Source: Thermovibrio guaymasensis (GTDB lineage: Bacteria > Aquificota > Aquificia > Desulfurobacteriales > Desulfurobacteriaceae). Taken from it: a DNA stretch of 64,000 nt. Within the stretch, counting starts at the first letter, position 1, and each line of letters starts with the position of its first letter. The DNA is taken from NCBI RefSeq assembly GCF_003633715.1, contig NZ_RBIE01000002.1, positions 62,001-126,000 of the forward strand. The letters run 5' to 3'. The translations under genes and the position numbers were made by a program. Positions 39,886 to 45,587 of the stretch are shown in pieces. The notes under the pieces are model-generated. The model was not told where the DNA came from. It saw only the letters and a list, made by a program, of their open reading frames with translations, and searched no databases.

Positions 39886-41820
39886 TTGAGAAGGAGCGTT
39901 CTAACCTTTCTCTTCCTCCTTACACTCCCCGCCTTCGGAGGGGAGGTCCCGGTAGTAATAACGGCAAAGGAAGTTAAGGGAAACGTTAATACCTCTGTAA
40001 AGGCACACGGTAGAGTAGTCGTAAAGTACAAAGACGTTACTATAGAGGGAGATAAGGGCCTATACGATAGGAAAAGGGAAACTATAAGAGTATGGGGAAA
40101 TGTAGTAATAAAGGAAGGGGATACCGAGCTCCACTGTAAAAACCTCATTTACAACCTTAACACAAAGGAAGCTCTCCTTGAGAACGTTGAAGGGTGGCTT
40201 TCAAGGGGGGAAAGACTTAAGGCAGAAAGGATTAAAAGGGTTTCCGAAAAGGAGTGGATAGCTTACGACGGAGAGTACACCCCCTGCTCCCACAAATGTC
40301 CAGACTGGTCGGTCTCTGCAAAGAAGTTTAAGATCCTCTTAGGAGAGTCTTTCGCAGGAAAGTGGGTAGCTTTTAGAGTAAAGGAAATTCCTATTTTAAT
40401 TTCTCCTTACCTTTCAGGGCCCATAAAGAGGGAAAGGAAGAGTGGTTTTCTGTTTCCAAGGTTTGGGTACATAAGTAAAGACGGTTTTATTTACAAACAG
40501 CCCTTCTACTTAGTCCTTGGAAGGAGCGCCGATCTAACCCTCACCTACGAAAAAAGGACTATTGACGGAGAGGGAAAACAGGCAGAGTTAAGGTACGTCT
40601 TAGGAGAGAAGAACAGGGGAGACCTAACTTACTACCAGCTTAACAAGTCAGACAGGAAGGACTGGAAGTTTAACCTTAACCATACTTACAAACCTTCAGA
40701 TTATGCCTACGGAAGTGCAAAGGCAGAGATAGTAAGTAGCAGGGAGTACTACAAGAGCTCCTCAAACCTTGACACAGTGGAGCAGTCACAAGTCTACACA
40801 AAGTCAGACGTAACAGTAAGTAAACTCTGGGAGCACACTGTTTTAAACGCCAACGCCGTTTACTTAAGGTACCTTGACGGAAGTGCCGATACTATCTACC
40901 AAAGACTTCCCTCCCTCTCCATTTACCTCCTTGATTCTCCAATCCCTAAAACTCCCTTCACTTTTAACCTCTTTTCAAGGGCTACATACTTTTACAGGAA
41001 GGCTGGAGGGAGCTCCTACAGGGTTAACCTAGAACCTTCCCTTAAACTCAGTAAGCAGATTGGCAGGGTAAAAAACACCAGCGAATTAACCTACATGTAC
41101 ACTTACTACCAGTTCGGCAACAGCAGGGAGCTGTGGAGGTTTAAAAACTCAACTAAGGTTAATAGGTTCTATCCCCTAGGTAGCTACGCCATTTCAGTTA
41201 ACCCAGAACTAACCTTTAACTACGTTGAAAGCAAAAATCAGGAGAGTTTCCCCCTCTACGATATAACAGATAGGATAAGGGGAGAGAGGAGGTTAAGCCC
41301 TGCCGTTGAACTTTACCTTTACGGAAAAGGGAAAAGGTTAGCTCGTATATCGGCTCAGACCGACTACCTTCTAAACGGCTCTAAGTGGAAGGAATTAAAG
41401 GGAGACTTTGAAATTACTCCAACTTACTGGTTGACCTTAAGGGAAACTGCAGACGTTTCCCCCCAAAGAGGTGGACTAAAATTTCTAAACTCCTACGCCC
41501 AGGTTAACCTAAGTAGAATTAACCTCTGGATCAATCACTACAACGGTAAAGAAATGGATATCCAATACCTTAAATGGGGTTTTAAACTACCACTTTCGCC
41601 ATTCCTAAACTTCAACTACATCCAGAGGTACGATTTAAAAAACTCAACTGACAGGGAAAGAAAGTACTCATTCACCATGAACAGGGGATGTTGGAACGGA
41701 GAAATTTCCTACAGGTGGATAAAAAATTACGATAGCACAATTGACTACCAAATAGTTTTAACCATTAACTTAGTTAAACTCGGAAGTTACGGCTACAAAT
41801 TTACTGGGAAGAAGGAGTAG
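39886..41820 (+). CDS. lptD: LPS assembly outer membrane protein LptD
   Basis: LptD is the outer-membrane beta-barrel that inserts lipopolysaccharide. The protein has a signal peptide (MRRSVLTFLFLLTLPAFG). An OstA/LptA-like jellyroll follows (KEVKGN, then GDKGLYDRKRETIRVWGNV). A long beta-strand-rich barrel from about residue 200 to the end completes the layout. The conserved PYLSGPIKRERKSGFLFP transition is clear. At 644 residues it is shorter than the E. coli protein (about 780). The start is TTG at 39886. It converges on the PilG-like gene with a 20-base overlap. Confidence 0.88.
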   Translation: MRRSVLTFLFLLTLPAFGGEVPVVITAKEVKGNVNTSVKAHGRVVVKYKDVTIEGDKGLYDRKRETIRVWGNVVIKEGDTELHCKNLIYNLNTKEALLENVEGWLSRGERLKAERIKRVSEKEWIAYDGEYTPCSHKCPDWSVSAKKFKILLGESFAGKWVAFRVKEIPILISPYLSGPIKRERKSGFLFPRFGYISKDGFIYKQPFYLVLGRSADLTLTYEKRTIDGEGKQAELRYVLGEKNRGDLTYYQLNKSDRKDWKFNLNHTYKPSDYAYGSAKAEIVSSREYYKSSSNLDTVEQSQVYTKSDVTVSKLWEHTVLNANAVYLRYLDGSADTIYQRLPSLSIYLLDSPIPKTPFTFNLFSRATYFYRKAGGSSYRVNLEPSLKLSKQIGRVKNTSELTYMYTYYQFGNSRELWRFKNSTKVNRFYPLGSYAISVNPELTFNYVESKNQESFPLYDITDRIRGERRLSPAVELYLYGKGKRLARISAQTDYLLNGSKWKELKGDFEITPTYWLTLRETADVSPQRGGLKFLNSYAQVNLSRINLWINHYNGKEMDIQYLKWGFKLPLSPFLNFNYIQRYDLKNSTDRERKYSFTMNRGCWNGEISYRWIKNYDSTIDYQIVLTINLVKLGSYGYKFTGKKE

Positions 41821-42676
41821 AAGACTTAACCGGTCTAAGGTTACTGGTAGTCCAAACAGTACACTTTTGCCTATCTACGTAAAACTTCCCACCATAAGGA
41901 TCTTCTGGAACTTTACTAATAAATCCTTTATCTACGAGCTCATCTAAAGAGTTAGGACACCTCCTGTAAACCTTTCTGAACTTCTCAAGAGCTAAGTTAA
42001 GGTCTCTAAGGTAAATAAGGACTTTTAGTCTCCTTTCAAGCTGTTTCCTTAGAACTTCATTTTTAACCCTCTTTAACTCCTGAGCAGTCTCAATCACAGC
42101 AAGCTGATATTTACCAGACTGAGCGTAAAGACGGGGAATTAAAAGTTTAAGGTAGTAGGGAGCCCCTTCCATATCAGATGCCTTTTTCAAATACTGAGCA
42201 CCCTTAACTTTATCCCCTAAAAAGTAAAAGTAGTTAAACCCTATGAAGAACGGAAGCCTCCAGTCGTCTATATATTTCATTCCTCTTTCAAGAGTTATAT
42301 TAACCTCGTGCAGAAATTCCTTCTTATCCTTTATTCGCCATAGAATGTAAGAACCGGTAAAGTAATAAGGGTCAAAGTAGTAAGGATCAAGTTTTGTTAT
42401 AACCTTCACGTTGTGAAAATTGGTTTCCCACTCCTCCTTACTGAACTTTCTCTCCCGCCACTGGTTAAAGATGTCATTCCCAGTCAGATAACAAGTCTGC
42501 ATATAGAGAACGTCGGAAATAAGGGGCTTGAGGGTAGGGAAGGTCAAAATCAACCGTTCGTAGGAGTAAGAATAGACCTTAGAGTCCCCTTCAACCTTAG
42601 GTTGAAGGGAGGTTGCCTTCTCCATAACTGGATAAGAAAGAGCTATAAGGAAAAACGCCAAAACCAGCCTTTTCAC
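41801..42676 (-). CDS. TPR-like protein with pseudopilin-like tail (PilG candidate)
   Basis: This 291-residue protein has an N-terminal signal or anchor (MKRLVLAFFLIALSYP) and helical TPR-like repeats (about residues 95-230). Its C-terminal stretch, CPNSLDELVDKGFISKVPEDPYGG, resembles the L-x-x-L-x-x-x-G-x-I-x-x-x-P-x-D-P-x-G pattern of GspG pseudopilins. I do not recognise a named family with certainty. It ends a run of pilin, ABC ATPase and ABC permease genes, where Myxococcus has pilG with pilH and pilI, so PilG is the best guess. It starts at the permease stop with one-base overlap. Confidence 0.6.
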   Translation of the reverse strand: MKRLVLAFFLIALSYPVMEKATSLQPKVEGDSKVYSYSYERLILTFPTLKPLISDVLYMQTCYLTGNDIFNQWRERKFSKEEWETNFHNVKVITKLDPYYFDPYYFTGSYILWRIKDKKEFLHEVNITLERGMKYIDDWRLPFFIGFNYFYFLGDKVKGAQYLKKASDMEGAPYYLKLLIPRLYAQSGKYQLAVIETAQELKRVKNEVLRKQLERRLKVLIYLRDLNLALEKFRKVYRRCPNSLDELVDKGFISKVPEDPYGGKFYVDRQKCTVWTTSNLRPVKSSTPSSQ

Positions 42677-43476
42677 TACAGTTCTCTCCTAGTAAAGAAC
42701 CAAGTGGAGATTAAAAGTACTGCACAGGAGTAGAAAAGGGTATAGAGAACAATCAGGACAAAGTAGAGAGGTGAAACGGAGAGCTGAAGGTGAACGGCAT
42801 AGGCCTTGAGGTCATAGAGGGAGAAGTTGGGGAAGAAGTAGTAGAGGACTTTTATTAAAACCTTGTTAAAAGGGCTTACGTAATCAGAGGAAAGGGACAG
42901 CTCCTTAACAGAGGCAAGCTCAAGGCCCGAGAGGAAAAGGAGAAAGCCGACAACGGTGGCGAGGGTCTGGCTCGTAAAGAGAATTGAGAATAGGGTTGAG
43001 AAGGCCGATAGGAGAGTTCCCATAAAGAAGAGGGAAAGAGTCAGGAGAAAAATCCTTTCAACTACAATAACATGAGGAACGTACAACCTTGCGAAGTGGC
43101 TTATTCCTAAAACACCCACAGAAACTATAAAGAATGAGGCAAAGAGAAAGAGGGCAAGGGCCATAAGGGAGCCAAAATACTTGCCCACAAGGTAACTCTC
43201 CCTCTTAATGGGTTTGGAGAGTATCAGATAAACGAACTTATCGGAGATATCACGAAAAAGGGTTGAGACGGGAACCATAATGGCAAAGATGGCCGTCAGG
43301 AAGAAGTAGAAGGCAAGGGCAAAGTCCATACCCACCTTCACGCTGTCTCCGGCGGCAAGCTCGGAGAGGTAGTAGCTGAGGAAGAGTAGGAGAACCTCAA
43401 CAAGGAGCATTCCGATAAAGAAGCGCTCTTTCACGCTCTCTCTAAAGGTGAGCTTTGCAACCGGCCAAAAACTCAA
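42676..43476 (-). CDS. ABC transporter permease (PilI-like)
   Basis: This 266-residue protein has six hydrophobic segments and belongs to the ABC-2 type of single-gene permeases. An amphipathic start (FWPVAKLTFRESVKERFF) is followed by segments near 20-38, 50-70, 98-122, 138-162, 170-186 and 235-257. The substrate is unknown. It overlaps the ATPase gene by four bases. Together with the pilin genes upstream it matches the Myxococcus PilH-PilI ABC transporter needed for pilus assembly, though generic export is possible. Confidence 0.8.
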   Translation of the reverse strand: MSFWPVAKLTFRESVKERFFIGMLLVEVLLLFLSYYLSELAAGDSVKVGMDFALAFYFFLTAIFAIMVPVSTLFRDISDKFVYLILSKPIKRESYLVGKYFGSLMALALFLFASFFIVSVGVLGISHFARLYVPHVIVVERIFLLTLSLFFMGTLLSAFSTLFSILFTSQTLATVVGFLLFLSGLELASVKELSLSSDYVSPFNKVLIKVLYYFFPNFSLYDLKAYAVHLQLSVSPLYFVLIVLYTLFYSCAVLLISTWFFTRREL

Positions 43477-44357
43477 ATCATTCCTCCAGAGCCTTTAATA
43501 AAGGAGACGAGAATGTCCTCAAGGGAAAGGCTCTTGGGCTCAACCGCCACTATTTCATAGCCCTCCCTCCTTAACTTTTCTAGGAAAGACCAGAGCTCTT
43601 GCCTGCTTATTTCCTTTGAGAGGAGGGAACTCTCACCAACTTTCCTGTAAACTAACGTATATCCAGTAATAAACTTACTTATAAGGGAAGAAACCGAGTC
43701 AATTAGCTTTATCTCACCACCGACGATAATAGCAACCTTGTCGGAGAGCCTCTCAACGTCTTGAATTATGTGGGAGCTGTAGAAGACGGCCTTACCTTCT
43801 TCCTTTAACCTTCTTATAACGGAAGCAATCACACTCCGCCCGACTGGATCTAAACCGCTCATGGGCTCGTCAAGAATTAGGAACTCCGGTTCGTTTAGAA
43901 GGGTCGCGGCAAAGAGGAGGCGCTGAACCATACCTTTAGAGTAAGAGGAGAGCTTCCTCTCCTCAACGCCGACGAGTTCAACGAGCTCAAGGAGTTTTAA
44001 GTACTTCTTCCTCCTCTTATAGTAGGGAATACCGTAAACGTCGGCACAGAAGTCAAGGTACTCCTTTCCGGTTATTGAGAGGGGAACGTAAGGCCTTTCT
44101 GGAAGGAAACCTACTTTTCTCTTTACAGAAACGTCCGTATTTAACTTTCCGAAAATTCTAATTTCCCCACTGTCGGGAAAAATAAAGCCCATAATTGCTT
44201 TCATTGTAGTCGTTTTACCCGCACCATTAGGACCTATAAACCCAAAAATTTCCCTACTAACTTCAAAGTTTACGCCCTTTAAAACCTTAACGCTCTCCTT
44301 TTTAAGAAAACCTTTCTTATAGCTCTTTTGTAGGTTTTTAACAGATAAAATAGCCAT
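43473..44357 (-). CDS. ABC transporter ATP-binding protein (PilH-like)
   Basis: This 294-residue ATPase has Walker A GPNGAGKT at residues 42-49, a signature-like SSYSKGMVQRL and Walker B FLILDEPMSGLD, with the switch His in FYSSHII. The start is ATG 44357, with a one-base gap after the preceding pilin stop; a longer frame to 44444 would overlap the pilin gene in an unrelated sequence. The tight pilin-ATPase spacing supports a function tied to the pilus, as for Myxococcus PilH. Confidence 0.9.
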   Translation of the reverse strand: MAILSVKNLQKSYKKGFLKKESVKVLKGVNFEVSREIFGFIGPNGAGKTTTMKAIMGFIFPDSGEIRIFGKLNTDVSVKRKVGFLPERPYVPLSITGKEYLDFCADVYGIPYYKRRKKYLKLLELVELVGVEERKLSSYSKGMVQRLLFAATLLNEPEFLILDEPMSGLDPVGRSVIASVIRRLKEEGKAVFYSSHIIQDVERLSDKVAIIVGGEIKLIDSVSSLISKFITGYTLVYRKVGESSLLSKEISRQELWSFLEKLRREGYEIVAVEPKSLSLEDILVSFIKGSGGMI

Positions 44358-44358
44358 A

Positions 44359-44892
44359 TCAGTAAACCGTGTAATTGACGTAGACGATTCTTTGGGGAGG
44401 TTCATCGGGAATGAAGACCTTTCCGATATTTCCGTCATTGTCAAGGTCTGCCTCTGCCTTCATTAAGATATCTATAACTCCTTCTCTTACCTGAGTAAAG
44501 CCGTTAGCAACAACGCTGTCATCGTAGCAGGCCTCCACATCGGCCATACACTGGGAAACGGTTCTACTGCCATTCGCCTTTGCAACGGCATACCTATACC
44601 TGATAACACCTTGAGGTCTAAAACCTATAAGGTAAAAGTAAGAGTTACTGTTCCAATCCTCCGTACCCTGAGGGGGGGGTATGTTTTCAGGGGACCAGTA
44701 ACAGGTAACGTACCACCCCTTCTCCGCCCTGTAGATCTCCTCCAGTTTTCTTAGAACTCCGAGGTTTTCAAGGGCTTCTACTCTTTTAGCTTGAAGGACG
44801 TACCTTTTGTAGTTGTACCCCGCTATTCCCGCAAGGATTCCTAGTAAAAGGAGTACGATTAAGACCTCTAAGATTGTAAACCCTCTTCTCAA
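44359..44892 (-). CDS. Type IV pilin-like protein (minor or second pilin)
   Basis: This 177-residue prepilin has a very short leader MRRG followed by FTILEVLIVLLLLG, cleaved after Gly4 with the conserved Glu at mature position 5. The soluble part shares the IGFRPQG-type segment with the major pilin, so the two are paralogues. Cysteines in VTCYW and VEACYD could form a disulfide. It follows the major pilin's terminator, so it likely uses weaker or separate transcription, and it leads into the ABC genes. Confidence 0.88.
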   Translation of the reverse strand: MRRGFTILEVLIVLLLLGILAGIAGYNYKRYVLQAKRVEALENLGVLRKLEEIYRAEKGWYVTCYWSPENIPPPQGTEDWNSNSYFYLIGFRPQGVIRYRYAVAKANGSRTVSQCMADVEACYDDSVVANGFTQVREGVIDILMKAEADLDNDGNIGKVFIPDEPPQRIVYVNYTVY

Positions 44893-44940
44893 TTTTTCTA
44901 CTCTTAATGTTAGTTATTATGACCATTTTATAAAACTGAG

Positions 44941-44966
44941 AAAAAAAAGAAAGGGCCGAAGCCCTT
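44941..44966 (-). terminator. Strong terminator after the major pilin gene
   Basis: On the minus strand AAGGGC-TTCG-GCCCTT forms a hairpin with a stable UUCG tetraloop. It is followed by TC and eight T residues. This is the clearest rho-independent terminator in the window and isolates the abundant pilin transcript from the downstream pilin-ABC genes. Confidence 0.9.
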
Positions 44967-44993
44967 CCTTGGGAGAGCAAGGATTAAGCCAAA

Positions 44994-45587
44994 TTAAAAC
45001 TCGTTAGCACCTGCATCAACGGGGTCAGGATTAATCTTGGTGTGCTCGTCGTCCCTATAGAATCCGGCTTTGATGCCGTCTCCGTCAAGGTCGCCGGTAG
45101 CGGCAATCGTAATATCAACCTGTCCATCGTGAACATCAACACCGTTTTGAATGTTACCGTTTGTGTCAATTGAAGTGTCGGTGTTGTAGGCGGTTGCATC
45201 GTTGGCCATGCTGTTACCGGAAGTTGCAGGTGATTGAGGAGCCCCCTCGGTTACACCGTAAACGTAGTAAACATCCCCTGCAGGCCTAAAGCCGATAAGG
45301 TCAAATCCTGCACCGGGAGTTTGAACCTGCCAAGGGTGCTTTGTAGGTCCGGGAGTAACTCCAGTAGGAGCCGCCGAACACTGGGCGTACTGACCGTGCT
45401 CTGCTGCAAAGCTCTCCTCAGCAGTTACGATTGCCCCAATGTTCTCCTTGGCCTCAACGGTTTTTGACTTGAGCTGGAACTTCCTGTACTGGGGAATAGC
45501 AATTGCTGCAAGGATTGCAATAATCGCTACAACAACCATCAGCTCAATAAGCGTGAAACCTTTACGGAAGTTTGATAAGTTTTTCAT
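44994..45587 (-). CDS. pilA: Type IV major pilin (PilA-like)
   Basis: This 197-residue prepilin has the leader MKNLSNFRKG, cleaved after Gly10, then FTLIELMVVVAIIAILAAIAIP with Glu at mature position 5. The soluble part is rich in Ala, Thr, Asp and Gly and ends with an Asp-rich DLDGDG loop that may bind calcium. The ATG has an AGGAGG SD. Upstream are a sigma-54 promoter and two phased activator-like sites, and a strong terminator follows. This fits a highly expressed, regulated major pilin. Confidence 0.92.
   Translation of the reverse strand: MKNLSNFRKGFTLIELMVVVAIIAILAAIAIPQYRKFQLKSKTVEAKENIGAIVTAEESFAAEHGQYAQCSAAPTGVTPGPTKHPWQVQTPGAGFDLIGFRPAGDVYYVYGVTEGAPQSPATSGNSMANDATAYNTDTSIDTNGNIQNGVDVHDGQVDITIAATGDLDGDGIKAGFYRDDEHTKINPDPVDAGANEF

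Follow-up and report, generated by a model that had tools for sequence, protein, structure and literature searches.

In Myxococcus xanthus, pilA, pilG, pilH and pilI form one operon (PMC3546991), and PilG, PilH and PilI, together system 3.A.1.144.5 of TCDB, are recorded as required for pilus assembly and for the export of PilA (PMC3924187). Another source calls PilGHI essential for pilin translocation across the inner membrane (PMC3724824), and M. xanthus-like arrangements are mentioned in several Desulfuromonadales (PMC6060248), each statement being given here as worded in the portion of the paper available to us. Against this background we describe a run of five genes in a 64,000-nucleotide stretch of the genome of the thermophilic bacterium Thermovibrio guaymasensis (contig NZ_RBIE01000002.1, positions 62,001 to 126,000; the whole stretch is called the window), where two prepilin genes precede genes for an ATP-binding cassette (ABC) ATPase, an ABC-2 type permease and a tetratricopeptide repeat (TPR) protein. 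Our preferred reading, held with slightly better than even confidence, is that the run is a PilGHI-type module, an accessory ABC complex of type IV pili that is dedicated to the neighboring pilins and acts on the periplasmic side.

The run spans 45587 to 41801 of the minus strand, in a Desulfurobacteriaceae-like (Aquificota) genome of 1.62 Mb and nine contigs (G000). Prepilin 1 (44994..45587), the probable major pilin, has 197 amino acids (aa; RKGFTLIELMVVVAIIAILAAIAIPQ), and prepilin 2 (44359..44892) has 177 aa (RRGFTILEVLIVLL); both score above the Pfam cut-off for N_methyl, with 38.2 and 26.2 bits, respectively. The best NCBIfam match of prepilin 1 is the N terminus of PilA_Myxo, at 77 bits, far under the cut-off of 400. 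A single base, 44358, separates prepilin 2 from the PilH-like ATPase (43473..44357, 294 aa; ABC_tran 84.7 bits), whose start we place at the ATG at 44357; the longer TTG start in the list of open reading frames (ORFs) would overlap prepilin 2. The PilI-like permease (42676..43476, 266 aa) overlaps the ATPase gene by 4 bases and the gene for the TPR protein (41801..42676, 291 aa; PilG-like by position) by 1 base. Coordinates, Pfam matches for both pilins, the ATPase and the permease, and a structure model of the TPR protein together bear out the gene run proposed in the initial annotation, which was also correct about the one-base gap.

The ATPase, permease and TPR genes, together the triad, behave as a single inherited unit that is linked to prepilin genes. 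TPR protein matches were found in 22 of 136 Aquificota genomes, 18 of them strong; weak matches (E 1e-10 to 1e-3), most of which fell within frames of 550-660 aa, were attributed to other TPR proteins and excluded from the counts. The same 18 genomes gave strong permease matches, adjoining the TPR gene in each, and the one extra permease match was a fragment (G085). These genomes fall in two families. Within the window's family, the order pilin-pilin-ATPase-permease-TPR is kept in all eight triad-bearing genomes (seven relatives plus the window), which is more than chance; the second family keeps the triad, with pilins before it, after it or on both sides in some genomes and none nearby in several. 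One genome scan yielded 41 loci, including Geobacter, Desulfuromonas, Pelobacter, Desulfobacula, Nitrospirae, WOR-3, Hydrothermota and one Acidobacteria bin, where the order was ATPase-permease-TPR in 36, permease-TPR-ATPase in 2 and partial in 3. Among 118 genomes sampled around G148, from a second phylum, 36 have the TPR protein, and for 32 of these 36 matches a permease match lies no more than 3 kb away once weak permease matches (E above ~1e-12) are excluded; three exceptions sit at contig ends (G228, G148 and G263), and in G180 the two are truly apart. A sample around G146, which shares genomes with the G148 sample, had TPR matches in 71 of 198 genomes, the weakest of them not trustworthy. 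Our literature search found no description of the triad block in Aquificota.

Two further observations concern single loci. The Nitrospirae bins L059 (G141) and L068 (G143) have the permease-TPR-ATPase order and no prepilin in the stretches read, and at L059 a UbiA-type prenyltransferase gene follows the triad. The metagenome-assembled genome G122 has a broken permease frame (L029:2219-3015), through either real decay or assembly error.

Linkage to pilins was counted over 81 loci, comprising the 41 above and a second set of 40 (L157 repeats L082, and L135 looks like L079). A prepilin gene on the same strand lay within 2.5 kb of the triad in 26 loci of each set (52 of 81), and the rest of the flanks held 4 more prepilins in the first set and 21 in the second. 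At the Desulfuromonas locus L071, the genes run PilC-like protein, histidine kinase, sigma-54 regulator, PilA, second pilin, triad, prepilin peptidase (pilD) and PilM-N-O-P-Q. We take the M. xanthus cluster to have pilGHI in this very slot, between pilA and pilD-pilM-Q, and in Pelobacter the triad also sits in the pilA-[..]-pilD-pilMNOPQ slot, judged by gene lengths only. Desulfuromonas and Pelobacter, too, have tandem pilins ahead of the ATPase, and the second pilin as a distinctive feature, as seen in the initial annotation, is not supported. The relatives L141, L146, L153 and L156 have the order pilin-(large gene)-TPR-ATPase-permease. At nine Desulfobacterota-type loci of the first set (L053, L055, L058, L060, L062, L072, L075, L077 and L081), a short Geobacter-like pilin of 70-87 aa and then an ORF of 109-152 aa, in most cases with an apparent signal peptide on visual inspection, adjoin the triad. 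Far from being confined to one strain, pilin-ABC adjacency is thus kept in Aquificota, in Desulfobacterota-type lineages and in further phyla. The resemblance to Myxococcus pilA-pilGHI drawn in the initial annotation gains support from this adjacency, from the pilA-pilD slot and from the grouping of the ATPases.

That grouping comes from a tree of 53 ATPases, the 15 other than triad ATPases being from the window's genome and locus flanks. All 38 triad ATPases fell on one side of a branch with support 98/91 in this tree, which has midpoint rooting only and several long outgroup rows; they form one clade, and the ABC genes do not group with an unrelated transporter family. Three records named "Deltaproteobacteria bacterium" carry a "Myxococcota" label that we did not trust, as their ATPases group with Desulfobacterota-type rows. 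By sequence, the nearest solved relatives of the window's ATPase in the PDB are ABCA transporters, with NosF lower in the list.

The permease passes its Pfam model narrowly (ABC2_membrane_2, 28.2 bits against a cut-off of 27.2), and a search of solved structures by sequence gave no match for it. Its structure model (predicted local distance difference test [pLDDT] score of 91) has NosY as the closest fold, with six rows at Z 19.9-22.1 and a best match at Z 22.1, root mean square deviation (rmsd) 4.1 and 246 aligned residues, followed by CcmB and PmtD (Z 18.2) and ABCG (17.6); folds absent from the match lists of this model and of the TPR protein's are not thereby excluded. NosDFY and CcmAB work on periplasmic partners rather than in plain solute export, the work proposed for the NosY-containing complex being mechanical. 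Because of this, and of the NosY-like fold, we prefer a motor acting through the TPR protein.

No Pfam or NCBIfam model recognizes the TPR protein, TPR_2 appearing only at E 0.31, and its profile found nothing useful among solved structures by sequence (best E 0.32). An AlphaFold model built from 33 relatives has a mean pLDDT of 92 and places a membrane helix at residues 2-23 (42608..42673), helical hairpins at 39-237, a small helix at 244-249 and a hairpin at 265-276. On this model the protein is predicted to be a TPR-type alpha-helical solenoid behind one N-terminal membrane helix, and five of six relatives counted have one hydrophobic segment. TPR proteins lead the structural matches (Foldseek E 0.004-0.06, Z 10-11); these matches are generic in kind, modest for helical repeats and none outstanding in either Foldseek or VIA-align, and they include YfgM of the PpiD-YfgM complex (Z 10.4, rmsd 4.4, 157 aligned).

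The initial annotation also proposed a GspG-like end to this protein, and a profile comparison of the tail (residues 219-270; 41867..42022) supports it. With hhalign the tail scores 29.9 against GspG (single-comparison E 7.3e-5); 200 column shuffles gave a mean of 11.0, a standard deviation of 2.3 and a maximum of 19.1, and the remainder of the protein scores 15.4. About 50 columns align, covering a helix end, P-x-S/T and P-x-D-P-x-G. Pfam T2SSG, run over the TPR proteins of eight genomes, reached E 0.26 and 0.58 for two tails, which is below the cut-off, and no N_methyl match (the prepilin signal) lies on the TPR protein, so it does not qualify as a GspG family member. Judged from sequence profiles, the GspG-like tail is supported, yet it appears normal for the family rather than peculiar to this locus as had been suggested: 25 of 33 aligned TPR proteins have [DE]P[YF]GG, five more have D-x-x-G-G and three have neither. 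These totals do not come from a regular-expression count over the 81 loci, which misses clear cases (e.g., L064, L066 and L067). Tail-less short TPR proteins (221-236 aa) mostly go with a TPR-first gene order (eight loci: L147, L150-L154, L156 and L157), with L083 and L161 having another order.

A strong terminator-like hairpin that the initial annotation did not mention (44946..44970, minus strand; 10 pairs, a 4-base loop and T8) sets prepilin 1 apart from the remaining four genes. Six of the seven family relatives have a hairpin in the same place, with stems of about 9 or more pairs and sequences unlike the window's, and the seventh (L029) has a weak one only; these hairpins are GC-rich, with at least five T directly after them in some, not all. 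Similar hairpins lie 3' of pilA at L071 and L078, the genera concerned being Desulfuromonas and Pelobacter. Terminator-like sites were not enriched over shuffled sequence (3 found versus 5.2 in shuffles), so the case for the hairpin between the prepilin genes rests on its position, not on number. Such a hairpin would allow much prepilin 1 to be made and little prepilin 2 and ABC product. Past the other end of the run, a putative LptD-like gene, judged by eye (39886-41820), converges with the TPR gene, their coding ends overlapping by 20 bases; a gene of like size occupies the same spot in most family relatives, not in L029.

How a PilGHI-type module might work can be outlined from these parts. 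Two ATPase and two permease copies would assemble into an inner-membrane machine like NosFY, and the TPR protein would be its fixed partner, with one membrane helix and the solenoid in the periplasm. ATP hydrolysis would produce movement that the TPR protein relays to a membrane-held pilin or prepilin. The effect would be to fold, extract or modify this subunit, or to pass it to the assembly platform. The GspG-like tail may mimic the C-terminal region of a pilin and dock in its place.

Genes next to the triad bring in a different explanation, namely that the substrate of the ABC pair is a lipid-linked sugar, which the pair exports or flips, that a membrane glycosyltransferase puts this sugar on the pilin and that the TPR protein couples flippase and transferase. 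In 13 of 41 and 11 of 40 loci, a large multi-pass gene on the same strand lies no more than 150 bp from the triad, often with start overlapping stop; all remaining flanks of the 81 loci, which are several times larger, hold 7 and 10 such genes (17 in total). In a scan of 29 large flanking proteins, some of which do not abut the triad, unrelated glycosyltransferase families recur in the same place: 10 matched Wzy_C (O-antigen ligase), 3 PMT_2 and 2 STT3, and in G133, of the window's own genus, an STT3 gene lies by prepilin 1. Many of the other scanned neighbors are multi-pass proteins that carry TPR tails and match no enzyme. The majority of triads have no large multi-pass neighbor at all, the one at L083 matches a spermine-synthase domain rather than a transferase, and locus L157 repeats L082. 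At the window itself there is no large multi-pass neighbor of the triad, no STT3 was found in the genome, and its one Wzy_C protein lies far away; Wzy_C matches occur in 19 of 22 family genomes with or without the triad. The M. xanthus pilus cryo-electron microscopy paper treats glycosylation only generally in the part available (PMC11046646). Pilin modification is therefore a recurrent companion of the triad, not a constant part, and sugar flipping as the triad's function seems to us unlikely, if worth keeping in view. As a separate observation, STT3/PglB-type oligosaccharyltransferase genes lie by the pilin or the triad in two Aquificota genomes (L028:10270-12276 and L034:9678-11600), one of them of the window's genus.

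Pilins elsewhere go through Sec and the signal recognition particle (Sec/SRP), and no protein channel is known in NosY-like permeases; together with the sister genomes that have PilQ and no triad, this makes it quite improbable that the ABC pair itself translocates the pilin across, or inserts it into, the inner membrane. Such a role is what the literature, in the portions available, states for M. xanthus PilGHI, as translocation in one source (PMC3724824) and PilA export in another (PMC3924187). The ATPase also matches DrrA and GldA subfamily models of the NCBIfam type, far below their cut-offs, as would suit a common ABC-2 exporter of the drug or peptide type that happens to be encoded next to pilin genes. 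Linkage with pilins and a TPR partner over several phyla and the separate ATPase clade speak against such an exporter; it is hard to keep because of the pilin linkage, and we consider it very improbable.

Several points weigh against a PilGHI-type module as well. Membership is putative, being judged on gene anatomy and position, and a shared NosY fold is no proof of mechanism. The window's partner protein, as modeled, would be an alpha-helical TPR solenoid, not the beta-helix of NosD. No prepilin lies within 2.5 kb in 29 of 81 loci, some because of contig ends. The window's triad has no core pil genes next to it, and the PilQ of this genome is on another contig. Of the 136 Aquificota genomes, 18 had a PilQ match above the cut-off, all of them members of the window's family; 11 of these 18 lack the triad, so pili are probably possible without it. 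Since many sister genomes have PilQ and no triad, the triad is an accessory of particular pilins.

PilGHI was reportedly first described by Wu et al. in 1998, and its role has been a question since then. The present data turn that question into testable statements: a membrane-anchored TPR accessory with a pseudopilin-like tail, a NosY-fold motor, and a block kept beside pilins in several phyla. In over a quarter of loci, a large multi-pass gene, often glycosyltransferase-like, shares a putative operon with the triad. A wider proposal, which we regard as doubtful though informative, is that these genes represent a widespread, unmodeled class of pilin maturation machine. Its transport-free, NosFY-like motor would pull on membrane-held pilin by way of a periplasmic TPR arm with a pseudopilin-mimic end, and unrelated protein glycosyltransferases (STT3, O-antigen ligase type, PMT and a TPR-tailed type) would have been recruited repeatedly to modify the held pilin. 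The same machine would serve Myxococcus PilGHI and the split pilins PilA-N/PilA-C of Desulfobacterota.

Set beside known systems, the window resembles NosDFY in its permease fold (NosY, Z 22) and in having NosF (the ATPase to the permease NosY) among the relatives of its ATPase, and differs in that the five genes include neither NosD nor copper genes. With the C-terminal region of the major pseudopilin GspG it shares the alignable tail, on a protein that lacks the prepilin signal. Geobacter has a split pilin, PilA-N/PilA-C, given as GSU1496/GSU1497 in the part of the source available (PMC5174107). The short pilin and following ORF at nine triad loci are of this kind, central to the nanowire debate, whereas the window's pilins are full length. 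Compared with PilGHI, the window differs in its ATPase-permease-TPR order, its second pilin and its core pil genes elsewhere. It shares genes for an ABC ATPase, an ABC permease and an accessory protein grouped with pilin genes; relatives with the same TPR family have the G-H-I order of accessory, ATPase and permease, and in Desulfuromonas the triad fills the pilGHI slot itself.

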